A stretch of 37,562 nt of DNA from a virus, in the IMG/VR virus record IMGVR_UViG_3300034951_000027, positions 1 through 37,562 of that record; one strand, given 5' to 3'. The notes beneath the pieces are model-generated. The model made no database searches and had not been told where the DNA came from. It saw nothing but the letters and a program-made list of their open reading frames with translations. The translations under genes and the position numbers were made by a program. Of this stretch, positions 466 through 33,340 are shown one piece after another; the stretch's first letter is position 1, and every line of letters starts with the position of its first letter.

Positions 466-473
466 GAGATATT

Positions 474-3132: not shown

Positions 3133-3134
3133 AA

Positions 3135-7031: not shown

Positions 7032-7040
7032 GAGGGCGCT

Positions 7041-8063
7041 ATGGATGTGACTAAAATAATACTTGATAACAAGCGCCCAATGATAGGTGAAATAGAGTTG
7101 ACACTCTTTGAGAATTGTCACCTCAACTGTTCATTCTGTCACCACGACAAGAAGTCTCACGTTGGTATTACACCGGTGGAGATACTATCTAAGACAAAAC
7201 AGGTCGAAGAGTTCCTGGTCAAGATGGGTAATCATGTGGACACCGTTCAGATTAACATGGTTGGTGGTGAGCTGTTCCAAGATAGGATGTCCCACCTATA
7301 CCCAACGTATCTTGAGTTGCTTATAAGGATTAAGGAGATATACGACAGACTTGGTTATGACATACAGGTTGTATGGGTAACATCCTTTCAGTTTAAAAAG
7401 AGAGAGCTTGTACAGGGGTTGCTTGACGACCTCAATGCAATAAACATACCCTCAAGCCTCATAGCTTCATACGACTTTGAAGGTAGGCCAACCAAAGGCT
7501 CTTACGCTACAAACGTAGATTATTTTGCAGACTATATTATTTCAATCAATATGGTTGCAACCACAGAGTCCATCATCAAGTTCATGGGTATTGAATCGGA
7601 CGATTACTTCGACTACCTCTACAATAAGTTTGATAACTTCTTCTTTGATGATTACATCCCAGATAAGGGTGAAGATCACCAGATACCTTCCGACTCGTTG
7701 TATTTGTCGTTCATGAAGTATCTATATAGAAAGTACCCAGACATCGCCCCATACGGGGATTTGATAAAGAACGACCATAACAAGATGCATTGCATGTCAT
7801 TGAATAAGGTGACAATCTTCCCAGACAACTCAACATCTAACTGTCGATGGGACAGGTACACTGATGATGACTTCAATACTCCGTTAAACAGGGCTGACAA
7901 CACATCTATGATGACTAGCTTCATGGATGAGTATGGTTGCCTTTCATGTAAACATTTCGACAGGTGCGGTTTCAGGTGTTATACACAATGGGATTGGACC
8001 AACCGAGTCAGGGATACTCCTGATTGTGTGATGAGGATGTGGTTTGATAGTATTTTATGTTAA
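7041..8063 (+). CDS. Radical SAM/SPASM protein 5
   Basis: 340 aa. Radical-SAM cysteines C26, C30 and C33 (NCHLNCSFCHH) and a GGE motif at 75-77 make this a more ordinary family member than proteins 1-4. The C-terminus holds a full SPASM-like set: C251, C268, C300, C303, C309, C313 and C329, enough for two auxiliary [4Fe-4S] clusters, with an extra Cys as the last residue (C340). SPASM proteins usually act on peptides or proteins (sactisynthases, AnSME, PqqE, MftC). Ribosome site AGAGG lies upstream and the end overlaps protein 6 by 20 bases. It is not an obvious close relative of proteins 1-4. Confidence 0.87.
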   Translation: MDVTKIILDNKRPMIGEIELTLFENCHLNCSFCHHDKKSHVGITPVEILSKTKQVEEFLVKMGNHVDTVQINMVGGELFQDRMSHLYPTYLELLIRIKEIYDRLGYDIQVVWVTSFQFKKRELVQGLLDDLNAINIPSSLIASYDFEGRPTKGSYATNVDYFADYIISINMVATTESIIKFMGIESDDYFDYLYNKFDNFFFDDYIPDKGEDHQIPSDSLYLSFMKYLYRKYPDIAPYGDLIKNDHNKMHCMSLNKVTIFPDNSTSNCRWDRYTDDDFNTPLNRADNTSMMTSFMDEYGCLSCKHFDRCGFRCYTQWDWTNRVRDTPDCVMRMWFDSILC

Positions 8064-9060
8064 GACAACAGAGACGTGTAATCTAAATTGCGAACATTGT
8101 TTTACCTCTGGCAGTAAGGGGAGGAAGATATTCTTCAATCCTGAAGATACAGCTAAGTTTGTAAACCACTGGGGTAATGAAGAGATACACATAGATTTCC
8201 ATGGCGGTGAGCCTTTCTTGGCACCACTAGATGATATGAAAAGATTTCATACATTGGTTCGAGATGTTAACCCGAGTTCGTCTATCGGTGTGACCACCAA
8301 CTTGACATTCAAACTCACACCAGAGAAAGTATCGTTTATTCAGAATGAATTATCCGGTAGGATCTGCACGTCTTGGGACGAAGGGATACGTTGGACAAAT
8401 GTCAGACAATATGACCTATGGAAGAAGAATGTAAGGTTGTTGATTGGTCTCGGTGTTGATGTTAAAGTAAATGTTTCAATGAACACCAAGTTAATGAAGC
8501 GCAGTCCAGCAGGAGTCCTTGCCCTGTTTAGGGAGTTAGGTATAAGAGAGATTGCCTTTGAAAGGCTTACCCATGATGGGACCGCTGAAAGAAACCCACA
8601 CATATTCCCAACCAACAAGGCAATTGATGATTGGATATGGGAGATGGACAAGGTAAACGACAGGGATTATTTCGACAATGTACTTCTTGAATCTGTCTAT
8701 GCAAAGTTTGAAGGAAAAGGAAACAGAAACTCTACCTTTTGTAGAGGGTGCGAAAAGATAATGTTTACTATCAATGCAGATGGTACTGTTGCAGGTTGTC
8801 CTAATTCAGCACCAACCGCCCACTACGCCACTATATATGATAGTAAAGAAAATGTACTGGCAAGTCCTGAAAGGGCGTGTATGATTGCCACTGAAGCCTA
8901 CCAAAACCCAGAGTGTATAAGCTGTGAGGTTTTTGGACAGTGTGGTGGAGATTGTTACAAGTTAAACTGGGACACACAGTGCCCAGCACCTAAAAGGTTA
9001 ATGTATGGACTTAATAATAAAACCAACAGAGCTATGCAACTTCAAGTGCACGTTTTGTAG
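8044..9060 (+). CDS. Radical SAM/SPASM protein 6 (TTG start)
   Basis: 338 aa. This is the most canonical enzyme of the set. The N-terminal motif is C12, C16 and C19 (CNLNCEHCF), GGEP is at 54-57, and a textbook SPASM pattern follows with C233, C236, C252, C279, C291, C294, C300, C304 and C313 (including CGGDC). The start appears to be TTG at 8044 inside the preceding gene, with GAGG upstream; no ATG precedes the Cys motif in frame. It overlaps radical SAM protein 7 by 56 bases. The organisation resembles anaerobic sulfatase-maturase/HxsB-type peptide-modifying enzymes, but I cannot assign the subfamily. Confidence 0.87.
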   Translation: MIVFYVKTTETCNLNCEHCFTSGSKGRKIFFNPEDTAKFVNHWGNEEIHIDFHGGEPFLAPLDDMKRFHTLVRDVNPSSSIGVTTNLTFKLTPEKVSFIQNELSGRICTSWDEGIRWTNVRQYDLWKKNVRLLIGLGVDVKVNVSMNTKLMKRSPAGVLALFRELGIREIAFERLTHDGTAERNPHIFPTNKAIDDWIWEMDKVNDRDYFDNVLLESVYAKFEGKGNRNSTFCRGCEKIMFTINADGTVAGCPNSAPTAHYATIYDSKENVLASPERACMIATEAYQNPECISCEVFGQCGGDCYKLNWDTQCPAPKRLMYGLNNKTNRAMQLQVHVL

Positions 9061-9976
9061 TTCAACGGACATATCATCAGAGGACGCTAATTACCTTCCG
9101 GTTGAGAGTGTCTTTGAGTTCCTGGATAATAACCCAGACACAAACACAATCATTGTGAATGGTGGTGATCCGTTGATGATGAAACCAGACTACTATTGGC
9201 AGATAATAGAGTATCTTGACTCTCATGAAATGAGTACCTCGATATCTTTCACAACTAATCTTTACCCTTTTTACGTTAATCCTGACAAGTGGTCAAAACT
9301 CTTTAACCATCCAAGGATGGGGATAACAACGTCCTTTCAGTATGGAGGGGGCCGTCTGAAAGGTGATCGATCTGTGTTCACTGCTGAGGACTTTTGGAAT
9401 GTATCCGACGCTATGTTGGACCATGTAGGTTATCGTCCAGGGTTTATATCGGTTGTCGTCGATGGTGAGCAGGACCTGGCAATTAAGAATGTCGAGTTAG
9501 CGAAAGAAATGGACGTTGAGTGTAAATTAAACTATGCAATGGCGTCCGGTATACAAGATAGACCTTTACTTCTGGCAGACACTTATCGAGTTTATCTCGA
9601 TATATATGACATGGGTTTGGCAGAGTGGGAGTACAATACCAAAGACATTATCAAGTCAATGCGTAACGAGGCCACAGAATGTCCTAGAAACAGAAGTTGT
9701 GAGACAGGCATACGATGCCTTCAACCCGATGGAGATGAGTACACCTGTGGGGCATTTGCTGACGATAAAGAGTATCCTGTAGGAGACAACTTCCGAGACG
9801 ATCCTGAATTGCTTTCAATGAATGATAAGTGTTTTACATGTCCATTGTTTACACTATGTAATGGGTGTGCCAAAACAATTAAAGATCACAAGCGATTTAA
9901 CATGCAAGGTGAGCATTGTTTTAGAATGAAAGAAATGCAAACTGAACTGTTGGAGATGCGTGATGTTGGACTGTGA
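9005..9976 (+). CDS. Radical SAM/SPASM protein 7
   Basis: 323 aa. Radical-SAM cysteines C11, C15 and C18 (LCNFKCTFC) begin almost at the N-terminus, so the start at 9005 is fixed even though it lies 56 bases inside the previous gene. GGDP at 53-56 is a variant of GGEP. Downstream cysteines C226, C232, C238, C248, C276, C279, C285, C288 and C305 make a rich SPASM-like region able to hold two auxiliary clusters. The end overlaps the cupin gene that follows. Substrate unknown; likely a protein or peptide by family. Confidence 0.87.
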   Translation: MDLIIKPTELCNFKCTFCSSTDISSEDANYLPVESVFEFLDNNPDTNTIIVNGGDPLMMKPDYYWQIIEYLDSHEMSTSISFTTNLYPFYVNPDKWSKLFNHPRMGITTSFQYGGGRLKGDRSVFTAEDFWNVSDAMLDHVGYRPGFISVVVDGEQDLAIKNVELAKEMDVECKLNYAMASGIQDRPLLLADTYRVYLDIYDMGLAEWEYNTKDIIKSMRNEATECPRNRSCETGIRCLQPDGDEYTCGAFADDKEYPVGDNFRDDPELLSMNDKCFTCPLFTLCNGCAKTIKDHKRFNMQGEHCFRMKEMQTELLEMRDVGL

Positions 9977-10349
9977 GAAGGATATTTTACAAAACGGAAC
10001 TGACTTTTATTTTATTGATGATAAAGGATTAGACTATAAGATTGAACAACCAGAGGCAGTGATAAAAGTTGCAGAGGGTAGGCACACTGTTAAAGTTGAA
10101 GGCCTTGAGTCGTTCTATGATTATGGAAAGACGGTACACGGTTTCATTTCTCCCGCTGGTTCGGTGTCATTTAAAACGCACGTTGACCCTGTGGATCTTG
10201 ATATAAAGTGTCTTCACGGGCGCAAGTGGATGGACGTATCTGGTGTTATCCGGTATGCCACAGAAGGTGTTGTGATTTTCGTACGTAATAACGTACCACA
10301 TAGGGCGATCAATACCTGTCGCAGTGTGTCACTCAGCATAGAAATATGA
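9963..10349 (+). CDS. Small cupin/JmjC-like (possible Fe(II) oxygenase) protein
   Basis: About 128 aa. I prefer ATG 9963 because GGAG lies seven bases upstream; GTG 9960 is possible. Motifs suggest a double-stranded beta-helix: PAGS then SFKTHVDPVD (HxD, H74 and D76 counted from the GTG), a turn GRKW, and VPHRA with the distal His (H114), followed by a strand SVSLSIEI. This H-x-D...H order is the metal triad of cupin_8/JmjC-type 2-oxoglutarate oxygenases, though the protein is shorter than usual enzymes and could instead bind a substrate or metal. It sits between two radical-SAM genes and overlaps both (ATGA with the next), so it probably acts in the same pathway, for example hydroxylating a residue (inference). 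Confidence 0.65.
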   Translation: MLDCEKDILQNGTDFYFIDDKGLDYKIEQPEAVIKVAEGRHTVKVEGLESFYDYGKTVHGFISPAGSVSFKTHVDPVDLDIKCLHGRKWMDVSGVIRYATEGVVIFVRNNVPHRAINTCRSVSLSIEI

Positions 10350-11233
10350 ACGTATCCATAAACCCATCTTACTTTTGCAACTTCTCTTGTAGCTTCTGTT
10401 ACTTGACGAAGGAGCAACTTAACAGTAAGACAAAGGTCTCCATAGACGAGCTAGATAAGAGGTTGTCAGAAATCCCTGTCATAGACTATGTGGACCTGTA
10501 TGGTGGTGAGTTTGCCACCCTCCCAAAAGCATACGTGTCAGAACTAAAAGCTACAATAAGAAAGCACTATACTGGTGAGATCAATATAGTGACCAACTTC
10601 TCTGTGATGAGAGATGAGCTATTTAGTGATGATATCTCTCTGGCTGTCTCATATGACTTTAAGGCAAGAGAGAAGCACGAAGATGTTTTTATGAATATGT
10701 TAATGAGTCCTAAAGAAATATCAATTCTTATACTGGCATCTCCTGAAGTTCTTGAGATGAATGTGGATGAGATGATACTTCAATTAAACATACTAGGACA
10801 ACTGAAGTCTGTTGAGATAAAGCCGTACTCACAGAACCAGTCAAATTCATTAGAGATAGACGGTAAAAAGTTTGACAGATTTATACTTGACTGGATCAAC
10901 TCAGATATTGTGAAGAACTTTATCTTTACAAATGAAGATAACCTAAACAAGGTCTTAGATGGTACAAGAAATGCCTTCTCTGATGATCATGTCTATATCA
11001 CACCAACTGGTAAGTTTGCTGTTCTTGAGTTTGACGATAACGACAAAGAGTTCTTTATGGAGCTTGACAGTATAGACCAGTACTATGAGTGGTCTAAGAA
11101 AGAGAGAGATAACATCTACCCGGGTTGTTACGATTGCAACTATCTCGGTAGATGTCTGACAGAGCATTATAGGAAACTGTCTTGCTCTGGACACAAGGAG
11201 TTAATAGAGGCATATGAAGGACTGGAAGATTAG
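10346..11233 (+). CDS. Radical SAM protein 8
   Basis: 295 aa. Radical-SAM cysteines are C11, C15 and C18 (FCNFSCSFCYL), with GGE at 53-55. C-terminal C261, C264, C270 and C280 (GCYDC, GRC, SC) form a short SPASM/twitch-like set. The start overlaps the cupin stop (ATGA) and no strong ribosome site is seen, which implies translational coupling. It is the last of eight radical-SAM genes in about 10.4 kb. Sequence does not reveal substrate or chemistry. Confidence 0.87.
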   Translation: MNVSINPSYFCNFSCSFCYLTKEQLNSKTKVSIDELDKRLSEIPVIDYVDLYGGEFATLPKAYVSELKATIRKHYTGEINIVTNFSVMRDELFSDDISLAVSYDFKAREKHEDVFMNMLMSPKEISILILASPEVLEMNVDEMILQLNILGQLKSVEIKPYSQNQSNSLEIDGKKFDRFILDWINSDIVKNFIFTNEDNLNKVLDGTRNAFSDDHVYITPTGKFAVLEFDDNDKEFFMELDSIDQYYEWSKKERDNIYPGCYDCNYLGRCLTEHYRKLSCSGHKELIEAYEGLED

Positions 11234-16972: not shown

Positions 16973-18109
16973 ATGCCTTTACCATCAAGTGGTAAGATTA
17001 CTACACAAACATTTAGAGATTTCTTTGAAATCAGTTCGTCAACTCCAATCAGTAGTTCTGACTGGTATCGTGGTGGCCCTTACGTTAGGGCCAACTACCA
17101 GACTGGGAATGGTAATAGTTCCATTAACAATCAGGTACCTACAAGCGGAAGGATAACACTAAGCGATTTGTATGGTGTGTACAAGGTTGTCCCTGCTAGT
17201 AGTCTTACACCAGGTAACTCAACCGAACAAGACATAACACCAAATCCACCCAACTATCCTAACACCCCAGACGAACCAGCTGCACTTGGTGGTGATGGTA
17301 ATAATACCAATGTTGGCCCTCCAGATCCATGGGCTAACCCACCAAGCACAACAAATGCTACTAATCAGGGTAATGGACCAATGAACCCACCAAACAATGA
17401 TTACGGTGCGGGACCAGCTGGTGCCAATCAAGACCCGTATCAGAATACAGCCACCAATAACGTATCCAATGGTGGCACGGTTGGCTATCAGAACAGTCCG
17501 GACGCAGCACTGCCTCCAGCTCTTAGAGACCCTTATGCGGCCAACCAAAACCCTCCGACTGGAAACAACAACTATACCTTCTACACTCCTGGGAACACCA
17601 ATCCGGGCAATCCTAACCCAGGCAATCCTTCAGACCCGGGTCAGTTTGGAAATGGAGATTTAAACCCCGGAGGTAGTAATCCACCTGGAAATAACCCGGG
17701 AAATTGGACATATGCAGACCCAAAACCACCTGGAAACTACAACTACAATTCCTCCAACCAGGGCAATGGACCAATGAACCCACCAAACAATGACTATGGT
17801 GCGGGACCATCAGGAACCCTTCAGGATAGTTATACAAACAATGTCACTACCAATACATCTAACTTTGGTAATGCAGGATATCAAAACAGTCCGGATCTTG
17901 GCGGCGTACCGGGAACCCAAGACCCTTTCGCAAATCCCGTTAATACTAACAACCCTCCAAACGAGACGGCAACGCCACCGACATACCCAGATAGTAGTTT
18001 AGCTGGAGATGAGCCGGCGCCAATAGGTGACGGTAGTGACGCTACAGGGACCCCGGACGAAACAGGAGGCAACCCCTCTTACTATGTTAATCATGAGAAA
18101 CTTGTATGA
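16973..18109 (+). CDS. Pro/Asn/Gly-rich repeat virion appendage protein
   Basis: 378 aa, no Cys, AAGGAGATT before the start. The N-terminal 80 residues (LPSSGKITTQTF, SGRITLSDLYG) resemble the short beta-motif found at the start of many phage appendage proteins. From residue 90 on it is dominated by Pro, Asn, Gly and Thr, with collagen-like PGNPNPGNP tracts. Two copies of a block of about 65 residues share an identical NQGNGPMNPPNNDYGAGP segment. Such low-complexity, extended chains are likely exposed on the particle. Its stop overlaps the start of a 2-oxoglutarate oxygenase gene (ATGA), with a second oxygenase next; proline hydroxylation of this protein is a reasonable inference. Confidence 0.72.
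   Translation: MPLPSSGKITTQTFRDFFEISSSTPISSSDWYRGGPYVRANYQTGNGNSSINNQVPTSGRITLSDLYGVYKVVPASSLTPGNSTEQDITPNPPNYPNTPDEPAALGGDGNNTNVGPPDPWANPPSTTNATNQGNGPMNPPNNDYGAGPAGANQDPYQNTATNNVSNGGTVGYQNSPDAALPPALRDPYAANQNPPTGNNNYTFYTPGNTNPGNPNPGNPSDPGQFGNGDLNPGGSNPPGNNPGNWTYADPKPPGNYNYNSSNQGNGPMNPPNNDYGAGPSGTLQDSYTNNVTTNTSNFGNAGYQNSPDLGGVPGTQDPFANPVNTNNPPNETATPPTYPDSSLAGDEPAPIGDGSDATGTPDETGGNPSYYVNHEKLV
17363..17557 (+). repeat. Intragenic repeat, copy A (Pro/Asn-rich block)
   Basis: First copy of a repeat of about 195-205 bases inside the Pro-rich virion gene. It begins with the codons for NQGNGPMNPPNNDYGAGP and ends near ANQNPP. It matches copy B at 17756-17962 most closely over the first 55 bases and again around GYQNSPD. 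Confidence 0.8.
17756..17962 (+). repeat. Intragenic repeat, copy B (Pro/Asn-rich block)
   Basis: Second copy of the block described at 17363-17557. The opening 18 residues are identical between copies, later parts diverge but keep the order YxNN-TxN-GYQNSPD-DPxAN-NPP. The boundaries are approximate because they were read by eye. Confidence 0.78.
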
Positions 18110-18687
18110 ATATACCAGCACACAACCCAAGCGCCTCTACAGCCTGTCACTACAGTGGCGGGTTTACTGAAGATGAGCTTGAGGAGCTTGATAAGTATCT
18201 AAACTCTCTGATGACTTTCAAGGCGGAGGTTGGAGACATAAAAGGACCTGCGCCTGTAAAGACAAGGGTGAGTGACGTTGCCTTTTTTAAGCCAGAAGAG
18301 CTTCCATGGTTCTCTGTGCGTATGCACGGGATTATTGACAAGATCAATAAGGATTGGTTCAAGGTTAATATAGATCATATAGGTGAGGGCTATCAGTACA
18401 CGGAGTATCATGCAACAGAGGGTGGTCACTACAACTGGCACGTAGACTCTCACAATACTTTTACCGAGACAACTAGAAAGTTATCTATGATTCTCGCCCT
18501 TAATGATTATAAGGATTATAAGGGTGGTGAGTTTAAGGAGCGCCTAGGTGGAGGCACAAAGACTTGGAAACTAAATCGTGGTGACATTCTAGTAATACCT
18601 AGTTATGCTTTGCACAAAGTAACAAGGGTATCTAAAGGAACTAGAAAATCTATAATCTGCTGGGTCAGTGGACCGCAATATATATAA
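18106..18687 (+). CDS. Fe(II)/2-oxoglutarate oxygenase 1 (prolyl-hydroxylase-like)
   Basis: 193 aa. The double-stranded beta-helix motifs are clear: YTEYHATEGGHYNWHVDSH with iron ligands H112 and D114, RKLSMILALN, GGEF, RGDILVIPSYALHKV with distal ligand H170, and R180 with S182 to bind 2-oxoglutarate. This is the prolyl-4-hydroxylase/PiuC-like superfamily that hydroxylates protein side chains using O2. The start overlaps the stop of the Pro-rich repeat protein (ATGA), so the two are translationally coupled. That physical link suggests the Pro-rich protein as its substrate (inference). Complete; no key residue missing. Confidence 0.85.
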   Translation: MNIPAHNPSASTACHYSGGFTEDELEELDKYLNSLMTFKAEVGDIKGPAPVKTRVSDVAFFKPEELPWFSVRMHGIIDKINKDWFKVNIDHIGEGYQYTEYHATEGGHYNWHVDSHNTFTETTRKLSMILALNDYKDYKGGEFKERLGGGTKTWKLNRGDILVIPSYALHKVTRVSKGTRKSIICWVSGPQYI

Positions 18688-18696
18688 GGATGAGAG

Positions 18697-19383
18697 ATGA
18701 GTGATCTTGATTTAAGAAAGATGAAAGACCCATTTGTTAAGGCAAACATAAACACTAGCTTCATAGCGTGTTATGACGGGGCATTCTCAGACAAGTTTTG
18801 TGATGATACTGTAGCATTGTTCCATCACCTTCAGAGTAAGTATGGAGATCAACATCCTGATGAAAACGACAACCCTATGGTTAACCATAAGTTTAATAGC
18901 GTCGGCCACAGGAAGGACAATTCAAGGTTCTTCCAGCAGATAGCTAACGAGTGGGACGAGGAAGATAGACAGGATAACATTAGGTTGTGTAAAACATTCT
19001 ATGACGGTATAGATGAGTACTTGCAAAAGTACATAAAGTCCATAGGTAAAAGTCTTGGTAAGCTTGAAGCAGATTGTTTTAAGGTTCATCACTACCCACC
19101 AGGCGGACACTTCTCGATCTTCCATCACGAACATAGTGGTGAGAATGACAGGTACAAAAGTAGAGTTCTAGTGTACATGGTGTACCTAGGTGAGGACATT
19201 CATAATGGCGAAGGGACAACTGAGTTTATTTATCAGGGCATCCACGTCAAACCAAAGAAAGGTAGGTTAGTAATATTCCCTGCAGATTTCACACATACCC
19301 ATAGAGGTAATCCAACATACCAGCAAGAGAAGTACATTGCTACTGGCTGGTGGTTAACGGAAGGATCTAACGGAGTTTATTAA
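18697..19383 (+). CDS. Fe(II)/2-oxoglutarate oxygenase 2 (HxE variant)
   Basis: 228 aa, start after AAGGATGAGAG. Core motifs are HHYPPGGHFSIFHHEHSGE, where H143-x-E145 would replace the usual HxD, then SRVLVYMVYLGED, GEGTTEF, KGRLVIFPADFTHTHRG with distal H200, and EKYIATGWW. The HxE carboxylate and the FTHTHRG segment are typical of a phage-enriched group of 2OG oxygenases. The substrate is not known; adjacency to oxygenase 1 and the Pro-rich protein suggests the same target or a second site. It ends in TAATG overlap with the next gene. Confidence 0.82.
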   Translation: MSDLDLRKMKDPFVKANINTSFIACYDGAFSDKFCDDTVALFHHLQSKYGDQHPDENDNPMVNHKFNSVGHRKDNSRFFQQIANEWDEEDRQDNIRLCKTFYDGIDEYLQKYIKSIGKSLGKLEADCFKVHHYPPGGHFSIFHHEHSGENDRYKSRVLVYMVYLGEDIHNGEGTTEFIYQGIHVKPKKGRLVIFPADFTHTHRGNPTYQQEKYIATGWWLTEGSNGVY

Positions 19384-19823
19384 TGTCCTATACAATAAGA
19401 CGCCTGCCAGTGGAAGAAGCACTGAGCAGGTACAACGAGTTCAGAGAGCATATAGAGAAGGCTCTAAAGTACAGCAGCGGCGAGTGGACAGCAGTTCAGA
19501 TAATGCAAAGCGTTATCACAGAGCCTGGTATATTTCACATATGGGAAGTCTTAAAGGACAATTGCCCAGTCGCCTTTGGCACAACTAAATACTTACAGTA
19601 TCACAACTTCACAGCAATGCACGTTATGACATTGGCTGGGGATACTGGTGGAGATATTGTAGAGTGGTCTAAAATATTTGAAGAAGAAATGAAGAAGCAC
19701 CCAGAGATTGACTGTCTAGAACTGTCAGGTCGTAGGGGTTTCGTAAAACAATTAGAGAAAGCAGGGTGGACCGAGAGGTACACGACCATGCGTAAATCAC
19801 TTAAGGAGATGTTAAATGTCTGA
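19383..19823 (+). CDS. GNAT-like protein, T7 gp13-type internal virion protein
   Basis: 146 aa, overlapping the oxygenase stop (TAATG). The C-terminal pattern CLELSGRRGFVKQLEKAGW, followed by a short strand TMRKSL, is that of the acetyltransferase-like (GNAT) fold found in T7 gp13-type proteins, which are small virion or assembly proteins of podoviruses. The acetyl-CoA loop (Q/RxxGxG/A) is not evident, so an active acetyltransferase is doubtful. Placed just before internal virion protein genes, as in T7-like phages. Confidence 0.58.
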   Translation: MSYTIRRLPVEEALSRYNEFREHIEKALKYSSGEWTAVQIMQSVITEPGIFHIWEVLKDNCPVAFGTTKYLQYHNFTAMHVMTLAGDTGGDIVEWSKIFEEEMKKHPEIDCLELSGRRGFVKQLEKAGWTERYTTMRKSLKEMLNV

Positions 19824-23034: not shown

Positions 23035-24558
23035 ATGATAGAAAACCAAAACACTGATGTTTACGATGATATGTACCAGCAATGGGAGATCAACGTAAGA
23101 AATCTAATGTCTCAAGGCTTCTCAAGAGAGGAGGCTGAGGCTCAAACATTATCACCGGATCAGGCGCCAACGTTTGAACCTGAGGTTTACTCAGAGGAAT
23201 TTGACGGATCCTCTGGCAATCCAGTTGACGATCCACATAGTTCAATATTTGAAACTACAGTGATCACGAAAGATGATAGGGGCGGTACGGTTACAACAAC
23301 CTCGAAGAACCCTACCCAAACTCCAGATGCTTTAGCTAAGAAGGCTGCGGAAGAGTTAGAAGAATGGCAGAACGCAAATCCTGCGAACTACCCTAACACG
23401 CCAGCACCTGGTACAGATTCGTCAATCTATGATGGTGAGTGGGAAGACCACTCCGCACTAGCAACGTCATTGTCTGATGTTGTCGAGGCTAAGGAGCAAG
23501 AAGCTGCTAGTCTTGAAATGCCTACGACTCCTGTTACCACTGAAGAAGTTAATGTAACTGCAGATGCTGATGCGTCTGTTAAGGTACTGGCTGAAGAGGC
23601 TCCCTATGAGCTAGGTGTTATCAATGATTTTGCTGACTGGGCTGCGAACAGACCAGAAGAAGAGTCCGTCAAGAAGGCTACGGAGATTATTGAGAGAGCT
23701 AAGGAATCAGGCCTTGATAGAGTCAAGCCACATGTATATAAAGCTCTTGGTATAACCTTGGCTTCAATGTTGTTTGGTGCTGATGCAGCTACTGCAGCCA
23801 CTCAAGGTCTTGGAGCTGTCAACAAAACTTTTGAGAATGAAAGACAGGTTCTTTCAAATGCGGCAGCGGTTCAAGCCGAGCAAGAAAAGTTTAAGTTTGA
23901 AGAGACTACTAAGGCAGATCAAAAGATTAGAGCGAAAGCTGCAGAGAATATCTTGGCAGCTCCAGCAAATGAGCAAGCCAGGATTTTAGCAATTCAAGAC
24001 AACAACCAGAAGATGATTACAACTCTTTCTGCTGACATAGACAGAAGTCTTAGTGAGCAAGAGAAGGAAAACTGGGGGGTTAGATCTGTTCGTGGTGAAG
24101 TTGCTAGGGCCGTTGCAAAGATGGAGAGTACCTACAAAGGTTATGACTTAACAAAGTCTATTAACCAAGGTGTCTTTTCGTCTGCTATAGAGAACTGGAT
24201 AACATCACCTGGTCGTAAGACCCCTCTGTTTACATTTATAGAAGATCAGATTGCAAGGAATAAGCTCACCTCTACTGGAGGTTTTGCTGCTGAAGACTTT
24301 GTTCAGGGCTCTATGCCTGTTGAAGACTACCACTCTGCAAACAAAAAGATCTTTGAGAAGATGAAGAGGGTTGCTGGCAAGAAGCTTTCAGATGGACTTC
24401 CAGCAGGTGAAGACGGTGCCGGAAGATTAATGAGAGAAGCTTATGAAAGCTTTAAGACAAACAATACAGATGCATTTGTTGAACTATCAAGAGAAGCTGG
24501 TGAGGCTGGAATGAGCCCGATCATGTTCTTTCTTACTGAAAAATACATACCAAAATAA
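23035..24558 (+). CDS. Internal (ejection) virion protein, 507 aa
   Basis: Start after ACAGGAGACTT. The N-terminal 190 residues are acidic and Pro/Thr-rich and look disordered. A hydrophobic stretch follows (about residues 238-262, ITLASMLFGADAATAATQGLG), then a long charged helical region with coiled-coil character (about 262-345), and a mixed C-terminal domain. A soluble protein with one hydrophobic segment and long helices, placed just before two very large genes, fits the podovirus ejection (core) proteins that form the channel for DNA entry. Assignment is from composition and order. Confidence 0.6.
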   Translation: MIENQNTDVYDDMYQQWEINVRNLMSQGFSREEAEAQTLSPDQAPTFEPEVYSEEFDGSSGNPVDDPHSSIFETTVITKDDRGGTVTTTSKNPTQTPDALAKKAAEELEEWQNANPANYPNTPAPGTDSSIYDGEWEDHSALATSLSDVVEAKEQEAASLEMPTTPVTTEEVNVTADADASVKVLAEEAPYELGVINDFADWAANRPEEESVKKATEIIERAKESGLDRVKPHVYKALGITLASMLFGADAATAATQGLGAVNKTFENERQVLSNAAAVQAEQEKFKFEETTKADQKIRAKAAENILAAPANEQARILAIQDNNQKMITTLSADIDRSLSEQEKENWGVRSVRGEVARAVAKMESTYKGYDLTKSINQGVFSSAIENWITSPGRKTPLFTFIEDQIARNKLTSTGGFAAEDFVQGSMPVEDYHSANKKIFEKMKRVAGKKLSDGLPAGEDGAGRLMREAYESFKTNNTDAFVELSREAGEAGMSPIMFFLTEKYIPK

Positions 24559-24574
24559 ATAACCAAGGAGACTT

Positions 24575-27500
24575 ATGGGAAAGACTGTAGCCGAACAGAT
24601 TGTTGAGGAACGCGCAGGGTTGGCATTCAAGGATGCCGACACGGTTCGTGACCAATACGGTTCTGTTAGATTTAAAAACCTATGGGCTCCTGAGGTTCAA
24701 CACTTTACTGAGGATGGTCTTCAGGGTGCTGAATATGGTGGAGAGTTTTATGCAGACTTGTACGAAGGTCTTGCAAGAGACAACGGATACACAGACGTTA
24801 AAAGATTTGGCGAACAAGGTAAATACGGAAGAGATCTAGGAGACTTAACAAATGAAAACCAAAATCTCTTCACTAGCAAGCTTGTTTACGAAGGACTTGC
24901 CGAGCCAAGCAGCGAAGGTCAAAGAGAAATCTACGATATGGGACTGTTCAACAGAGCCATGCAAGGTGAAGCCAACGAAGAAGACCCCTGGGAAATTGCC
25001 AGACAAAAAGAAAAAGAATACAAACTTGCTACAACAGCTGGGTATAAAGAAATAGCATTCGATGAATCTGAACTTTCAAATTCAAACGAATACTTTGACA
25101 AGGGCTACGGCCCTTTTGTTGATAGAGAAGTTCAGTATAGACACTACGACAGAGACTACAACAATAATGCCAACAGTGCATTCTCAACCAGTATCGAGCA
25201 TGGTCTATTAAGTATTCAACAAAACATAGATGAAGGTATTGCCGCACTCGGAGATGTTCTGAACTCAAAAAGTATGTATGAGTATGGAACAGCCGGTGCG
25301 GAAGCCGTTCAACGTGAGATGGATAAGCTACCTCAGTGGGCTATAGATGTTGCAGACGTAGATGACCTGGCATCAGCCGGAAGGTGGGCTGCAGGAAACA
25401 TTGGTGTCTTCTTGCCATACATGTTGGGACTCGTTGGAACCGCAACTGCAGGGGCACTTATAGCTGGAGCAAGCGTACCGTCAATGATTATTGGTGGCGC
25501 TGTTGCGGCAAGCCCTTTATGGGTTTATGCTGGTGATGTGTACGGTCAGATGGAAGGTGGCATGGACCAGAAGAATGCAGGTGTTGCTTTCTCTGCAGGT
25601 GTTGGCATGTTCCTTCTTGACAGGTTAGGTCTTAAAGGTCTTGTCAGCTCTTCTGCTATGCTTAAGAAAGGTGCAATGGGTGAAGTTGCAGAGGCGTACG
25701 CAAAGAAGTATGGCGTTACTCTAGCTGAAGCTAAAGCCAAAGTCACAAGCGTTAGTGGAGGTATTAATATAAAGGCTCTTGGTGATATCAAGGGACTTAT
25801 AAAATTAGAACTTAACAAGGCAGCACTTGCAAAAGAGTCGATCAAAGGATTTGGCAAGGGTGCATTGATGGAGGGAACGACAGAGGTTGCTCAAGAATCT
25901 TTAGGATACTTCAGTGCCATTGGCGGATCTGAGAAAGAGTTTGACGCAGATGAATATACAAGACTTGTCCAGGCTTCTGCAGCTGGTGGTATGTTCCTTG
26001 GTGGATCTATAAAAGGTGTATCAACAGCTGCTTCAAACTACTCTGGATTTAAAAGACTTCAGAATGAATTAGCATCTCCAAAGAATAAAGACAACTCACA
26101 CATTGGCAAAACTCTTGAGGAGAATCTTGACAGCCTTGTTGGAGAAGACTTCTCTGTTGATCAGTTGGTCAATGACGGCGCCGAGGTTGTCCAAGACAGC
26201 CCTGAAAGTGTCTTCATAGAAAGCCTTGGAGATGTTGTTAAAAATATGGAAAGCTCTACTGCTATACCTATTGATACTAAAGATATTAATTCTGCAGCAG
26301 ATGAGGAGATAGTCAAGGGTCATAATCTAGACAAAGCTAAATTTAATGGAGGCTCCAAAGGTCTTTGGCAATCCACTAAGGAGTTTCCTAAAAGGTTTGT
26401 TAAGCAGTTTGGCTCTCTATGGGAAGATAAACTACTAGGTCCTAATGCAACCACGACTGATAAGGGCAAGAAGATCTGGAAGGTTATTGCTACAATGGCT
26501 GGACATGGAACGAAGTCCTTTATGCAGGGATACAACACAGGTGAGACCAGAAGACTATTGTCACAAGACTTTACGTTTAACTCTGGCGTTCTTGAAGGTA
26601 GACTGTATAAGCTTTTGAATGTTGGCCTAGGTCGCATGAAGAAAAGCACAGCAAGGAAAGAGTTTGTCGAGTACTACAACAATAAGAAAGACTCTGTAGA
26701 TAAAGATGGCAAGGTAATCAAGAAAGGTTTTGTAGCAGAGAAGCACAAGATGTTGGCAGAAGATTTTGAGGCTCTAATACTAGAGTACAGATCTCTGACC
26801 GATGGTCTTAGAAAAACTGTTATGGATCTTACTGGAGAAGCTGTTGGTGTTAAGGACGACTGGTTCTTTGAAAGCTCTCGTTTAAATACTGATGAGGTTT
26901 CAAAAGATAAAGATGGATTCGTGGCCGCTCTTATTGAGAATGGCTGGTCAAGCAATGAGGCTAATGACTTTTGGGAGAGACTTATTAATGGTCCTCCTGG
27001 ATATGACCCATCAAAACTTAAAGAGCTTGGGTTTAAAAACTTTAGATCAAAGTCCTTAAGAGAGAATAAGGATGTTCTTGATTCTGCCTTCAGGGGAACT
27101 AAGTTTATGCAAGACGATCCATTCCAAAGGCTTGCAGAGAACGCCCAAGAACAGATCAACTATGCTGTTGACAAAAGGTATTACGGAAATGACATGGAGA
27201 AGATTAAGAAACTCCTTGTTATGTTGAAGAGCGAGATGGGTGAGGATTGGGATCCAAGAATTGCCTCTCAAACTATTGACAGTATTTCTGCGGCTCGTGG
27301 TGACTATAAAAGAATGAAAAGCAAGACAGCCGAGAGAATGGTAGGACACTTTACGTTCCTTAATACTCTTACTCATCTGTCACTATCAACGCTCGCTTCG
27401 TTTCCTGAAGCCGCTATAGTATTACTTGGTGCTACAAGAGACGCAAAGCTTATGGATCTAATCCAGAAAGGTGCTGTTGATCTTGGACATCACTACGGTA

Positions 27501-28612
27501 ATGCAGCTGGAGAGGCTTGGTCTTACATAGGCCCAGGCTCTGGAGTTAGCAGAGATCAGTACGTAAGAAACGTTGTTGACTTTTACCGTTATGGTTATGG
27601 AAGTTCTACTCACGGTGCTATTGGTCAAGTCGGTCTTGATGACGCTATCTACAAGACATCCAAGATAAAGAGTGGTGTTCTTAAAGCGTTCTTCTGGGCT
27701 AATGGTTTGAAAATCTATACAGACGCTACAAGGATTGCTCGATTAGCTTTGGCTAATGATGCTATCTTTGGAGACCTGGAGATCATAGCTATGTATCCAC
27801 CTGGCCACAAGGCTAGAGATACAGGGTTATTCCACAATGCCTTTGAAAGAATTAGAGAGTTAAACATTGATCCTGATCAGGCTGCTTTGGATTATCAAAC
27901 TACACTGGTCAAGCTTAATGATAAGCTTGGTGAAGGGTATCTTGATAACCTAACGTCTGAGGATATCTACGCTAATCTTATAGATATTATGCCTGAGTTT
28001 GTTAACACTATGGACATTGCGCGTATGTCTTGGGTAGATAATGCTATCGCTCATCCAGACGCAATGAACCGTCCTACTTGGTATTCCAATCCGTACTATA
28101 GATTGTTTACCCAGTATAATGGTTTCATGTCTGTGTTTACTTCACACATCTTACCAAAGATTTGGAGAAGAGTTAAGGAGGGAGATCCTTCAGCAAGGTA
28201 CAATGCAGTTGCGGTTGCAGCTTCAATGATTGCTCTTGGATTCTTAAGTCAAGCCCTTAAAGATGAGTGGAAGTATGACGGCAGACCTACCTGGATTACT
28301 GATAAGGGTTATGTTCAAAGAGGTATCTCAAGTAGTGGCCTTATAGGAACTCCCGAGAAACTTCTTAGTATGATTAGTCCTCTGTATGATACGACCAAGC
28401 AACCTTGGGAGTCTTATCCTGAGCACATTGCAGGTAGGGTTGGAGACGCCGGGGAGGATCTCCTTGGTCCAACATGGAAACATGGTAAGAACTTATCTAA
28501 ACTTGTTATGTCTCAAATTGAAGGGAACGATGAACTTAGAAATATATATCTCACTAAAGAGATACCAATTGCTGGAACAAACTATTCCTTTAAAGAATGG
28601 ATGCAGAAATAA
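24575..28612 (+). CDS. Large internal (ejection) virion protein, 1345 aa
   Basis: Start after CCAAGGAGACTT. A hydrophobic cluster lies at about residues 268-325 (GVFLPYMLGLVGTATAGALIAG and SMIIGGAVAASPLWVYAG); such segments are typical of large podovirus internal proteins that cross the host membrane during ejection. The segment EGTTEVAQESLGYFSAIGG, followed by Gly-rich FLGG, is commonly seen in these proteins. The rest is charged and mostly helical. I see no lysozyme-like transglycosylase signature (unlike T7 gp16). It precedes the putative virion RNA polymerase and may be the portal for its delivery (inference). Confidence 0.7.
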   Translation: MGKTVAEQIVEERAGLAFKDADTVRDQYGSVRFKNLWAPEVQHFTEDGLQGAEYGGEFYADLYEGLARDNGYTDVKRFGEQGKYGRDLGDLTNENQNLFTSKLVYEGLAEPSSEGQREIYDMGLFNRAMQGEANEEDPWEIARQKEKEYKLATTAGYKEIAFDESELSNSNEYFDKGYGPFVDREVQYRHYDRDYNNNANSAFSTSIEHGLLSIQQNIDEGIAALGDVLNSKSMYEYGTAGAEAVQREMDKLPQWAIDVADVDDLASAGRWAAGNIGVFLPYMLGLVGTATAGALIAGASVPSMIIGGAVAASPLWVYAGDVYGQMEGGMDQKNAGVAFSAGVGMFLLDRLGLKGLVSSSAMLKKGAMGEVAEAYAKKYGVTLAEAKAKVTSVSGGINIKALGDIKGLIKLELNKAALAKESIKGFGKGALMEGTTEVAQESLGYFSAIGGSEKEFDADEYTRLVQASAAGGMFLGGSIKGVSTAASNYSGFKRLQNELASPKNKDNSHIGKTLEENLDSLVGEDFSVDQLVNDGAEVVQDSPESVFIESLGDVVKNMESSTAIPIDTKDINSAADEEIVKGHNLDKAKFNGGSKGLWQSTKEFPKRFVKQFGSLWEDKLLGPNATTTDKGKKIWKVIATMAGHGTKSFMQGYNTGETRRLLSQDFTFNSGVLEGRLYKLLNVGLGRMKKSTARKEFVEYYNNKKDSVDKDGKVIKKGFVAEKHKMLAEDFEALILEYRSLTDGLRKTVMDLTGEAVGVKDDWFFESSRLNTDEVSKDKDGFVAALIENGWSSNEANDFWERLINGPPGYDPSKLKELGFKNFRSKSLRENKDVLDSAFRGTKFMQDDPFQRLAENAQEQINYAVDKRYYGNDMEKIKKLLVMLKSEMGEDWDPRIASQTIDSISAARGDYKRMKSKTAERMVGHFTFLNTLTHLSLSTLASFPEAAIVLLGATRDAKLMDLIQKGAVDLGHHYGNAAGEAWSYIGPGSGVSRDQYVRNVVDFYRYGYGSSTHGAIGQVGLDDAIYKTSKIKSGVLKAFFWANGLKIYTDATRIARLALANDAIFGDLEIIAMYPPGHKARDTGLFHNAFERIRELNIDPDQAALDYQTTLVKLNDKLGEGYLDNLTSEDIYANLIDIMPEFVNTMDIARMSWVDNAIAHPDAMNRPTWYSNPYYRLFTQYNGFMSVFTSHILPKIWRRVKEGDPSARYNAVAVAASMIALGFLSQALKDEWKYDGRPTWITDKGYVQRGISSSGLIGTPEKLLSMISPLYDTTKQPWESYPEHIAGRVGDAGEDLLGPTWKHGKNLSKLVMSQIEGNDELRNIYLTKEIPIAGTNYSFKEWMQK

Positions 28613-28629
28613 TATAAACAGGAGTACTT

Positions 28630-31600
28630 ATGCCTTTAGGTAAAATCACAGCTCAGTCGGCAAACAGGGGTCCAACTCCTGAAGAGATCAAGATAATGGA
28701 GGAGCGTAAGGCTGGTATTAAAAACACCGAAGCCCTTAATGTCGACAGTCAAACGGAGGACGCAGTAAATAGCGTCCTTCCAAATCTTGATCAGATACAT
28801 GAAAGATCTCTGCCGTCCTCCTCTGGAGACCCTGTGTCTGCTGCTGGCGGTGTTGATGTCCCTGAGGGTCGTGAACTTGCAGCAGCTATTGGAAGGGAAC
28901 AGTACAGTCTTGCTCCGGAGATTCTTAGAAGATCTCCAGGCACAGCCTTTGAGGACCCTAACTTACTAAGGGAAGAGGAAGATGCTCTTCTTGAAACCTT
29001 TGCTTTACAAGAGGGTGTTAGTAAGGACAGGGTTGCAACAGACCCAGCTCTTTATGAAAAGTTTGGTAGATACCTTGGAGCTCAGACAGATACGCTTAAT
29101 CAGGAGAAGTACTTTGAGTACACATCTGAAGGTAAAGCTGGCAGCGGACGTAAGGTCCCGACACCATGGCTAAGTCCAAAGTTTGTCCAGGAGAACACAG
29201 GTGTTGCCGTACTGAGGACGCCTGAGGGCGGAGAAGTACAGACTAGAGACTTTGGTCCTTCAATCTCCAAGAACATGCAGGACTTTTCAAACAGAGCGTC
29301 TGAAGAGGTTAACAAGACTTTGAATGACTCCTTTAATCCAGCAAACCTCAAGAGTCAACAGGATCTTTCAAGAAAGATTCAGGAAAGCTCCGGGTTAAAC
29401 CCAGAGACCATTGATGAATTTATGTACACGCTTGTTAATAACTATGCTGCGGTACGTGAGGGGAACACAGATGCAAGTAAGTTTTGGTCTGATGTTTTCC
29501 TTCACTCAGTTCTATCACATACTCGAAAGAATATGTGGAGACAGAGAGAGGCATCAACAAAGTCTGCAACTGATAAGGCTAAGTCGCCTGATTCAAATGA
29601 GGACATTATGTCTGGACTTGCTGATGACAATGCTATTGGTAGGATGGCTCTTACCTCAATGGGTTTTGAGTCACCAACCAAAGACCAAGTACAGATGGCA
29701 GGGTCACTGGCTAGAAATATAGTTGAGTATACATTCCAAGAAGACGATCCGTCTGGCGGAATGGTTGATACAAATAATGGAGAGAGACCTAAAGGCTTTG
29801 AGCACAGGTCTTTGTTCAGGACAATTAAAGTTCCTGGCGTAAATAAGAAAGGACAAGCGGTTGATAATCTTCTAACCGTTCTTACTAGAGAGGGTGAGCT
29901 TGTAGCTGAAAAGCTAGAGCCACTTACCAATAAGATCATTCCTAGCTCATCAAGAACTGTAAGGTTTTCTGAAAGGGAAACCACAACTCGTGATGCCAAG
30001 GTTAGGAAGACAGCAAGTCTTAAAGACGTCGAGCAGGGTGATGTTGAAAATCAAAGGGTTAACCTTGATGTTATGAACAATACCCCTCATGGCGTTCACA
30101 ACGCTGGTCTTGATATGATACTTGGTATCTTGTCAAATCCTCAGGCAGTTGCAGGCTTAGACTCCCAAGGGTTTATGAACATAGCTGGAAACGGCTTTGG
30201 AGACAAGGGATCTTTTGGTAAAAGGTTTGGCTTAACTGTCTATAGGGATGACTATGGCAAGGCTATCAAGAATGAAGATGGCACTGTCAAATACAAAGAC
30301 AACTCTGGAGATAGAAATAAAGACTTGATTCTCAAAGATACTATTAAGTGGGCGACAGATAACAAGGATACAGAAATGTTTTTCTATGACTACTTCTATG
30401 GTAACAATAATAGAATGATGGTTGACCAGACTCAAGGAAACTACCAGTCAAATAAACTAGCTAGGTCTCTGCTTGAGGCTGGCATCAAAGAGGTTTATAG
30501 TTTATCAAACCCACGACATGTTAAGCTTTTGAAAGCTGGCATTATGAAAAGGTTTGGTCATGACAAGAAGTCTATAGAGGATACTGCTAATTTGTTTGAT
30601 GGATCTATTAGGGAGTTTCAGCGGATGGTGGGAACTATTGCTGGAGATGGTGGCGTTGAGTTGGTTAAACTCGCCGGTAGTGAGGAGGGCTTTGCTAGTC
30701 TTTCAGCTATAGCCGAGGCCGTTACACTTGCTGCTGCCTTAAAGGTACACAATGGTGGCGGATCTGACGTCTACAAGTCGGGATTCTATGTTGAGATTGA
30801 TGGTCTTACAAATGGTATGGCACACTCTTCAATGCAGGCTGGAGACATCAACACGGCTAGGTCAACAAACATATTCTCTAAGAATGAGTTTGACAGGGCT
30901 GTTGAGAGAGGTGAGGTTGAGGGACTGGATGTTTATGACAGAACCTTCGCAACAATGATCGACCATGCTGAGAGTTCTGGAGACAAGTCTGTTATAAGTT
31001 TCTTAAGTGCTCTTGAGTCTGGAGACTCAAAACTTGGAAGAGGCTTTGCTAAGTCACCAGTTATGATCTTTGGCTACGGAGCCGGTGATGCTGTGATTGA
31101 TCTTTCTGTAAAGGCATACTTCAAAGACTTGTTCACGGAAAAACCAGGACTTCTTAATACAATCATCAAAGATATTGGTGAGGGTGGTGTTGAGAAAGTT
31201 ATTGACAGGTTGTCGGAGTCTATAAACGTTGCGCTTAAATCTGACTTCTCTTTGATTAAAGAGTTGACTGACACGCTTCAGTCTATAGGTAATGATGCAT
31301 CCATCCAGGGCTTTGGCTTGTCTGTCCCATTAATTAATGGAGGCAGATCTAACTTCGGTAAGATCGAGTTTGATGTTGACTACGACAGCAGGCACAGATA
31401 TCACGTGGGTGGTAGCAAGGCAGCTATAGGTAAAGACGGATCTCCTTATGTGAGGAAGCGTGTAGAGTTTTCTACATACAAAACCAGTAGAGAGATGAAC
31501 CCTTTAAGTAGTCTTGATAAGAGAAACTATAAGGGCGAGCTTAAGAAGTCTTACAAGGCTGCGACGCAAGCCGTTATCTTAAACCATGCTAATGACAATA

Positions 31601-32055
31601 TCAACATGACAAACGCCATTAGAAATCTTCATAACAAAGGTCTCAGGAACACATCGGCACATATCTTTGATGGTCTTCTAGTCACTCCGTTGAGAGCTGA
31701 AGAAGCTGCGAGAGAATTGAACGATGTATTCATGAAGGTAAACAAGCACCCTAAGAGTCACTTAAAGTCTATGCTTAAGAGCTTACACTTTGAGCTTGAC
31801 CCAGCAGGAAATGTTATAGAAGATCCTAACAACCCACTTCCAGAAGGTAAGGTTGGGAAGGAGCGTTTCCTAAGGAGACTCCTTCCAGACGGTTCGGCTT
31901 TTGCAGAGGAGCATGGCTTATCAACATGGGATAAGAGGCTAGATCGTTACGCTTATCACATGGATCCTGAGTTAAACATAGCAGTGTCTACTATAAACAA
32001 TAGAAGAGACAATGCTACCAAGGTATTGCACGGCGCCTTACAGTTCTTCTTTTAA
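28630..32055 (+). CDS. Putative virion-associated single-subunit RNA polymerase (N4/T7-type)
   Basis: 1141 aa, start after ACAGGAGTACTT. Signature elements of T7-family polymerases appear in the right order. A segment NTPHGVHNAGLDMI (about 490) resembles T7's NTAWKINKKVL. A variant of the DxxGR block follows at 587-595 (DYFYGNNNR), then GNYQSNKLARSLL. Motif A is IDGLTNGMAH with catalytic Asp D724 (compare T7 DGSCSGIQH). Motif B is R804-GFA-K808-SPVMIFG-Y816-G, whose R/K/Y spacing equals T7 R627, K631 and Y639. Motif C is HIFDGLL with D1014. The length is close to the N4 mini-vRNAP core (about 1100 aa). Lying last in the virion/ejection gene run suggests it is packaged and injected, as in N4 (inference). 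Confidence 0.78.
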   Translation: MPLGKITAQSANRGPTPEEIKIMEERKAGIKNTEALNVDSQTEDAVNSVLPNLDQIHERSLPSSSGDPVSAAGGVDVPEGRELAAAIGREQYSLAPEILRRSPGTAFEDPNLLREEEDALLETFALQEGVSKDRVATDPALYEKFGRYLGAQTDTLNQEKYFEYTSEGKAGSGRKVPTPWLSPKFVQENTGVAVLRTPEGGEVQTRDFGPSISKNMQDFSNRASEEVNKTLNDSFNPANLKSQQDLSRKIQESSGLNPETIDEFMYTLVNNYAAVREGNTDASKFWSDVFLHSVLSHTRKNMWRQREASTKSATDKAKSPDSNEDIMSGLADDNAIGRMALTSMGFESPTKDQVQMAGSLARNIVEYTFQEDDPSGGMVDTNNGERPKGFEHRSLFRTIKVPGVNKKGQAVDNLLTVLTREGELVAEKLEPLTNKIIPSSSRTVRFSERETTTRDAKVRKTASLKDVEQGDVENQRVNLDVMNNTPHGVHNAGLDMILGILSNPQAVAGLDSQGFMNIAGNGFGDKGSFGKRFGLTVYRDDYGKAIKNEDGTVKYKDNSGDRNKDLILKDTIKWATDNKDTEMFFYDYFYGNNNRMMVDQTQGNYQSNKLARSLLEAGIKEVYSLSNPRHVKLLKAGIMKRFGHDKKSIEDTANLFDGSIREFQRMVGTIAGDGGVELVKLAGSEEGFASLSAIAEAVTLAAALKVHNGGGSDVYKSGFYVEIDGLTNGMAHSSMQAGDINTARSTNIFSKNEFDRAVERGEVEGLDVYDRTFATMIDHAESSGDKSVISFLSALESGDSKLGRGFAKSPVMIFGYGAGDAVIDLSVKAYFKDLFTEKPGLLNTIIKDIGEGGVEKVIDRLSESINVALKSDFSLIKELTDTLQSIGNDASIQGFGLSVPLINGGRSNFGKIEFDVDYDSRHRYHVGGSKAAIGKDGSPYVRKRVEFSTYKTSREMNPLSSLDKRNYKGELKKSYKAATQAVILNHANDNINMTNAIRNLHNKGLRNTSAHIFDGLLVTPLRAEEAARELNDVFMKVNKHPKSHLKSMLKSLHFELDPAGNVIEDPNNPLPEGKVGKERFLRRLLPDGSAFAEEHGLSTWDKRLDRYAYHMDPELNIAVSTINNRRDNATKVLHGALQFFF

Positions 32056-33176: not shown

Positions 33177-33340
33177 TATTTTCTCCAGTCTCGCTTCCAT
33201 AGTGGTCTTGGTGGAATCCCTTTGGACTCTTTTTCTTTCTTTAATTGTCTGTACGTTTCTGTTGTCCTGTCTTCCTGAACAAGAGACTTAGTGGGGCAGT
33301 TAGCCCCACCGTAATAACCTATAAGGTTGTCGTCTTTCAC
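33176..33340 (-). CDS. Small hypothetical protein, 54 aa (GTG start)
   Basis: Reads VKDDNLIGYYGGANCPT, then a charged helix (TYRQLKKEKESKG) and a Pro/Trp tail (IPPRPLWKRDWRK). The GTG start overlaps the stop of the upstream 34-aa gene (GTGA), and its stop overlaps the next start (TAATG). This tight coupling at both ends argues that it is a real gene. Function unknown. Confidence 0.58.
   Translation of the reverse strand: MKDDNLIGYYGGANCPTKSLVQEDRTTETYRQLKKEKESKGIPPRPLWKRDWRK

Follow-up and report, generated by a model that had tools for sequence, protein, structure and literature searches.

The stretch of DNA analysed here (the window) is the IMG/VR virus record IMGVR_UViG_3300034951_000027, 37,562 nucleotides (nt) in length, with ends that are not known. 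The gene at issue lies at 28630..32055 on the + strand and encodes P0001, which a signature motif, profile comparison and phylogeny identify as a compact RNA polymerase (RNAP) of the N4 virion type (virion RNA polymerase, vRNAP). The open reading frame (ORF) starts with ATG, has no internal stops and encodes 1141 amino acids (aa). Translation and alignment place motif A at 30793..30816 (+), where P0001 reads FYVEIDGLTNG and the residues E722-I-D724-G-L-T-N-G729 form the N4-vRNAP signature ExDGxxxG. Motif B (R804-x3-K808-x7-Y816, within GRGFAKSPVMIFGYGAG) is found at 31039..31077 (+), and motif C (H1011-I-F-D1014, that is, HIFD) at 31660..31671 (+). A further block, YGNNNR, occupies residues 590-595 (30397..30414, +) and closes at R595; it aligns with the N4 block and is the counterpart of DxxGR in T7 RNAP. 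The motif residues named in the first-pass annotation, an earlier note made from the sequence alone, are all at the positions it gave (D724, R804, K808, Y816 and D1014).

Family databases agree on the class of the protein. P0001 is matched by Pfam RNA_pol (PF00940, E 7e-8), by PHROG 2206 'virion RNA polymerase' over residues 576-823 (E 9.9e-19) and also by PHROG 414 'RNA polymerase' (E 1.3e-15). Direct sequence searches of the PDB with P0001 and with the family alignment gave no match even at E 10. A tblastn search of INPHARED with P0001 returned two Escherichia phage RNAPs (26.6% over 22%), and the same search with a longer relative returned no match. Scans of viral contigs were more productive: 13 clear relatives were fetched with their surroundings (L003-L015), together with a contig from the same virus as the window (L002/G001). 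A scan of genome contigs gave no relative, and thus no pointer to the host.

Two findings had been named beforehand as arguing against a polymerase, namely loss of the catalytic residues in homologues and a predicted structure without the right-hand polymerase fold. Neither was encountered. In an alignment of 13 proteins, made up of P0001 and 12 relatives at 25-37% identity (L014, which is frameshifted, was left out, as were L016 and L023), D724, R804, K808, Y816, D1014 and R595 are invariant in 13/13. An AlphaFold2 model of P0001 built from the family alignment has a mean predicted local distance difference test score (pLDDT) of 64.7, higher in the polymerase core. When compared with the PDB by Foldseek, this model matched 73 chains at E<=1e-3, of which the 50 listed comprise only mitochondrial, T7 and N4 RNAPs; among the 50 best rows from BFVD, almost all of those with a name are phage RNAPs. 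VIA-align superimposed the model on T7 RNAP (Z 24.7, root-mean-square deviation (rmsd) 3.6, 497 residues aligned), on the N4 mini-vRNAP 2po4 (Z 19.4, rmsd 12.6, 673 residues) and on the N4 RNAP domain 9pnq (Z 16.8, rmsd 4.8, 539 residues). By Pfam, profile comparison and predicted fold, P0001 is a single-subunit RNA polymerase, a class (T7/mitochondrial/N4) of which it has the right-hand fold, the PF00940 match and the residues expected in motifs A, B and C.

The enzyme is small for an N4-type polymerase. P0001 has about one third of the size of the N4 enzyme, and family members with both ends seen measure 1141-1668 aa. The model aligns with 2po4 from about residue 210 to the C-terminus, which suggests that P0001 is close to a natural mini-vRNAP with an N-terminal extension of ~200 aa. 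Most of the N-terminal part of N4 gp50 is left without a counterpart, as is its C-terminal part, described as autoinhibitory (PMC12633501, in the accessible portion of the text), in line with the core-sized enzyme proposed at first pass. The longest family member (P0003, L015:7115-12121, 1668 aa) carries a DnaQ-type exonuclease domain fused before the RNAP (RNase_T, E 8e-13, residues 327-502).

Kinship with the N4 enzyme, and not merely with T7-like RNAPs, is backed by a signature motif, by profile comparison and by phylogeny. In the available part of a survey of N4-like viruses, ExDGxxxG is given as a conserved N4-vRNAP motif (PMC10654107). It is found in 13/13 compact proteins, with the version EIDGLTNG at 722-729 in P0001, and in 12/12 sampled Schitoviridae-type vRNAPs, as against 0/10 T7-like RNAPs from the contigs of the compact family. 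In hhalign comparisons, the 13-member compact profile aligned to the 12 Schitoviridae vRNAPs with a probability of 98.9 (E 2.9e-17, 359 columns), and to T7-like RNAPs with a probability of 86.9 (E 4.1e-6). A maximum-likelihood tree of 30 rows, based on a cut around motif A, places the compact proteins in one clade (100/99) and the Schitoviridae in another (87/91). The T7-like side of this tree consists of T7, CRP-7 gp30 and the G014 RNAP only, and nine T7-like RNAPs with the motif A sequence IDGVNNGTQH are absent from it; because of the long branches and this thin T7-like side (3 rows), the depth of the splits is not settled. The altered DxxGR block had been taken as a sign of a divergent group, and the separate clade, together with YGNNNR in the window and the invariance of R595, bears this out.

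Filing P0001 as a Schitoviridae vRNAP was considered and rejected, because two defining features, length and clade, were tested and neither is present. Schitoviridae enzymes have large N- and C-terminal domains and a reference length of 2842-3820 aa, as far as the accessible text of PMC10654107 shows, in contrast to 1141 aa in P0001 and 1141-1668 aa in its family, and the compact family forms a separate clade beside them. P0001 does not fit the Autographiviridae type either, since its profile is nearer to the N4 type and its DxxGR block reads YGNNNR. The compact family is best classed as a sister lineage of the Schitoviridae vRNAPs, and most likely works like one of them. According to the same partly available source, the IMG/VR survey threw out N4-vRNAP relatives of <2500 aa (PMC10654107), so compact relatives would be missed by it. 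Two genes of intermediate length, L023:112-7194 (2360 aa) and L016:3-4397 (at least 1464 aa), contain ExDGxxxG and motif B and are followed by two genes of ~980-1270 aa; they group on the Schitoviridae side of the tree (93/89).

The polymerase gene had been described as closing a set of late virion genes, and this arrangement is conserved. Directly upstream, at 24575..28612 (+), is the gene for a 1345-aa virion protein, probably an ejection protein, which matches PHROG 6958 'virion structural protein' (E 6.6e-22) and, weakly, particle proteins of CRP-7, tf and Vibrio phages. A putative injection role for it is plausible in view of the PHROG match. It is preceded at 23035..24558 (+) by a 507-aa late-cassette protein that gave no family match at E<0.01 and is a possible inner-virion protein by position. 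In all nine loci with a complete upstream gene (L002, L004, L007, L008, L009, L012, L013, L014 and L015), this gene has a product of 1345-1384 aa and is separated by 11-17 nt from the polymerase gene, which is the last of the late cassette; L010 shows a cut end of the upstream virion gene. Opposite-strand genes, those of the replication module, converge on the polymerase gene in 14/14 loci (L002-L015); in the window's virus they include RNR, a RecE-like exonuclease, primase and helicase. Pseudomonas phage tf and Vibrio phage phivp506 have the same layout, with no RNAP in the polymerase slot. On the evidence of gene order only, we infer that P0001 is packaged in the virion.

A second, canonical T7-like RNAP is encoded on the opposite strand in these phages. 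A PF00940 search of 19 records, 15 of them family records, detected it in 11/15 family records (the G003 copy is cut by a contig end), and the four without it (G000, G005, G010 and G012) stop before its locus. For the window's virus, this gene lies outside the window and was located in G001, a contig that overlaps the window by 23,977 nt with 0 mismatches, and thus represents the same virus, and that runs 14.2 kb past it; there the gene occupies 28056-30497 (-) and matches PF00940 with E 1.2e-61. DYRGR and IDGVNNGTQH are both present in 9/10 T7-like copies examined. A search of G001 for repeated T7-type promoters gave mainly coding repeats and the hairpins described below. An element, AATAAGGG[CT]GC, flanks the T7-like RNAP gene in two contigs (G001 30596 and 30561; G009 21286 and 18814) and is a possible promoter of that RNAP.

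The early promoters of N4 take the form of DNA hairpins, with their centre at -11. The loop has three bases, and template positions -10G and -12A are joined in a sheared pair, so that the template loop reads 5'-GNA-3'; SSB melts the non-template copy of the hairpin while the template copy persists (PMC4496689, available portion). The early region had been proposed at first pass as the place to look for such hairpins, and four were found there in G001, to the right of the window's end. All are perfect and lie on the early strand: an 8-bp stem with loop TAAA at 36320-36301, before a 72-aa ORF; a 7-bp stem with loop TAAA at 35672-35655, 37 nt before a 133-aa ORF; a 7-bp stem with loop TAAA at 35211-35194, 141 nt before the gene for a bacterial-type SSB (PF00436, E 2.8e-26); and a 7-bp stem with loop TAAC at 30546-30529, 32 nt before the T7-like RNAP gene. 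Their stems are of three sequence kinds, the first two sharing a core, and the loop type and orientation are constant. None has a T-run on the early strand, and one is terminator-like on the opposite strand.

Similar elements occur in relatives. The hairpins of G002 have loops TAC or ATAC (four are intergenic, and one more TAC lies inside a small opposite ORF), and G007 has the loop TGC three times, once with a 6-bp stem. Read on the template strand, these loops are GTA and GTAT in G002, GCA in G007, and TTTA and GTTA in G001. The N4 polarity is present in G002 and G007, and the window's virus has related template loops. Within the window, an inverted repeat in the convergent intergenic region at 33291..33309 (-; stem of 7 bp, with a loop of 5 nt that reads TAACT on the early strand), which is G001 19706-19724 shifted by 13585, may be related to the early hairpins. 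A 14-base core from two G001 hairpins had at least 120 matching stretches in viral contigs, and this comparison was uninformative.

Hairpins with stem >=7 and loop 3-4 were counted in the early intergenic DNA of 11 contigs (30.2 kb) and compared with 200 dinucleotide shuffles: 31 were found, whereas the shuffles averaged 5.6 and never exceeded 13. Loops of the stable classes GNA, GNNA, GNAB and CNNG on the template strand numbered 12 (shuffle mean 0.4, maximum 3), as against 3 on the opposite strand, two of which are self-mirrored CNNG. By row count, the 14 three-base loops include 7 template GNA and 1 sense GNA, a class fixed by the N4 paper (PMC4496689, accessible text). As a positive control, N4 bases 1-7000 were scanned at a stem limit of 5, and the three early promoters were recovered with template loops GAA, GGA and GGA, along with 11 further hairpins of other loop types. 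From their positions and from the description in the N4 paper, we take these three hairpins to be promoters P1-P3. The third, at 4546-4562, lies 41 nt before the RNAPII gene at 4603, and two of the three pass at stem >=7. At this stem limit, no hairpins were found in tf (5101 nt), Vibrio phivp506 (3860 nt) or CRP-7 (2585 nt), and these phages together with T7 have 1 hairpin in 14.9 kb. None was found in the late modules of the compact-vRNAP contigs, whose intergenic DNA amounts to only ~3.1 kb.

A small relative of the N4 RNAP, N4-type hairpins and a T7-like RNAP occur in one phage, which suggests that N4's unusual start of infection also exists in a much smaller form. With a rough probability of 0.77, these phages use the N4 strategy in compact form, in which a packaged and ejected vRNAP fires hairpin promoters and makes SSB and the T7-like RNAP. 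Synthesis of the compact vRNAP would fall in the late phase; it would enter the virion along with the inner proteins whose genes lie immediately upstream, and would be ejected into the host with the first DNA. It would then recognise early promoters in the form of extruded hairpins, whose template-strand loop is in many cases extra-stable, and transcribe an early operon including the bacterial-type SSB and the canonical T7-like RNAP. The latter would subsequently take over the middle and late genes, as RNAPII does in N4. The analysis itself establishes the class and kinship of the enzyme, the conserved order of the genes, the existence of both RNAPs, and the occurrence and polarity of the hairpins, while packaging, ejection, promoter use of the hairpins and the cascade are proposed.

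Several observations weigh against this compact N4 strategy. The compact profile aligned to the single N4 sequence with E 2e-4 and a probability of only 45, motifs A and B being aligned. The P0001 model is of moderate quality (pLDDT 64.7), and the single-subunit fold does not by itself separate the N4 from the T7 type, the Z score being higher for T7. Three of the four G001 loops (template TTTA) fall outside the stable-loop classes; DNA loops with TTTA are known to be stable. Stable DNA tetraloops are reportedly the subject of a 2002 paper by Nakano, to go by its title. The four-base classes were added after the loops had been seen, following that title as it appears in a reference entry of PMC2984261. 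Half of the stable-loop hairpins (6/12) share a single orthologous position, ahead of a ~172-aa gene that lies downstream of the T7-like RNAP, and these six are therefore not independent. T7, used as a negative control, has 1 hairpin (template GAA) in 3382 nt at stem >=7. G006 and G014 include the early end, yet have no such hairpins there, and in G009 and L203, whose T7-like RNAP is 72% identical to that of G001, no hairpin precedes the T7-like RNAP gene and an ACGT-loop hairpin follows it. Finally, the early strand of G001 has a sigma-70-like site matching at 11/12 positions; such sites are fewer there than in shuffles (14 vs 24.8).

The sigma-70-like site and the lack of early-end hairpins in G006 and G014 would also fit an alternative that we consider unlikely, in which P0001 is a genuine N4-type RNAP but stays out of the virion: produced late, it would serve the late genes in the infected cell, early transcription would be started by host RNAP, and the hairpins would act as terminators, processing sites or operators. 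Gene order, the evidence for packaging, leaves room for such an enzyme. However, the T7-like RNAP is already present for the middle and late genes, and the polymerase gene closes the inner-virion cassette. The hairpins stand before, and not after, early genes, those of G001 lack an early-strand T-run, the loop polarity across the contigs follows that of N4 promoters, and such hairpins do not occur in the limited late intergenic DNA.

Considerably less probable is that the polymerase is packaged and ejected mainly to pull in the genome by transcription or to serve in the ejection channel, using sequence or non-specific promoters, with the hairpins serving another factor. Transcription by the N4 vRNAP is tied to genome entry in the available parts of PMC4496689 and PMC12633501, and hairpins are missing from some relatives, but all catalytic residues are retained in 13/13 proteins, the same virus has hairpins before SSB and the T7-like RNAP, and the stable loops are polarised. 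That P0001 is a decayed or chimeric polymerase without activity, retained as a structural protein, is highly improbable: the YGNNNR block is altered and the L015 relative has a fused exonuclease domain, but the proteins, at ~30% identity, show no variation in the named residues of motifs A, B and C or in the arginine that ends the altered block.

The compact N4 strategy may be extended to a broader proposal, for which we see a slightly better than even chance. The family would constitute a natural 'mini-vRNAP' lineage outside Schitoviridae, with a complete, self-contained cascade in a phage whose genome measures ~52 kb or slightly more, a phage-specific loop code, and co-divergence of loop and enzyme. 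The order would be the ejected compact vRNAP, extruded mini-hairpin promoters, and then early SSB and T7-like RNAP. Each phage would have its own loop code (TAC, TGC and TAA[A/C] on the coding strand), and these would be variants of unusually stable template loops. In that case recognition would be by hairpin form, with the loop having diverged together with the enzyme. In open-licence literature, no paper on compact vRNAPs was found, nor any that tested whether phages of this kind package the enzyme or use the promoters.

Compared with N4 gp50 and the Schitoviridae vRNAPs, the compact enzymes share ExDGxxxG, motifs A and B, the single-subunit RNAP fold and the place in a cassette that, given the inferred role of the neighbour, would be an ejection cassette. 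Some of the phages also resemble N4 in having hairpins ahead of early genes; several compact relatives show GNA template loops, and in the window's virus a hairpin precedes the second RNAP gene. They differ in several four-base loops (template TTTA, GTTA, GTAT and CTTG). T7 RNAP and the T7-like phage RNAPs have in common with P0001 the fold, the catalytic residues and the R-x3-K-x7-Y spacing of motif B, but their motif A lacks the ExDGxxxG glutamate and their gene is not in the late cassette. The T7-like RNAP of the compact-vRNAP phages is a separate enzyme with an intact DYRGR block. Its proposed likeness is to N4 RNAPII (gp15/gp16), in being made early and taking over transcription; RNAPII is a heterodimer, whereas the compact phages would use a single T7-type chain of ~810-820 aa. 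In P23-45, a virion RNAP transcribes the pre-early genes, among them the gene for a second RNAP (PMC10770324, accessible part), but the RNAPs of that phage are relatives of cellular RNAPs and the virion one is fused to a tape-measure protein.

Work on the N4 vRNAP has dealt with one giant enzyme. From a core-sized enzyme that occurs in nature one could learn for which functions the very large additional domains of N4 are dispensable. It would also offer a minimal system for hairpin-promoter recognition and its evolution, and would bring the transcription strategies of N4 and T7 together in one phage.

The cultured Roseobacter phage CRP-7, which shares a T7-like RNAP (gp30) with the compact-vRNAP phages, has an unannotated 1235-aa protein, gp33 (L017:23979-27686), in the corresponding slot, where it follows a homologue of the 1345-aa protein. 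Stretches resembling the motifs are seen by eye (E[AS]DARQSN, K-x3-R-x7-YG(K) and HDALIT). No significant hhalign link joins gp33 to the compact family or to Schitoviridae vRNAPs, the model of a relative was useless (pLDDT 35.7), and CRP-7 has no qualifying hairpins. Gp33 could be a still more distant virion RNAP.

Some other features of these genomes stand out. Family A DNA polymerase (PF00476) was found in 0/10 records (G000-G002, G006-G009, G011, G013 and G014), several of which cover the replication modules well. The late cassette of the window contains two adjacent genes for 2OG-Fe(II) oxygenase-like proteins (18106-19383, PHROG 61). Next to an endosialidase-chaperone tail protein, a Pro/Asn/Gly-rich protein of 378 aa (16973-18109) has internal repeat copies about 393 nt apart. 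Adjoining the tail genes, the region 881-11233 holds about eight radical-SAM-like genes with CxxxCxxC-type motifs, which match PHROG 1802 (down to E 2.5e-55) as well as SPASM and peptide-maturase families, and beside them is a small protein with an HSSC-repeat tail (474-881). Among 10 family records searched, PHROG 1802 matches occur in the window only, and this run is possibly a virus-encoded peptide- or tail-modifying pathway.

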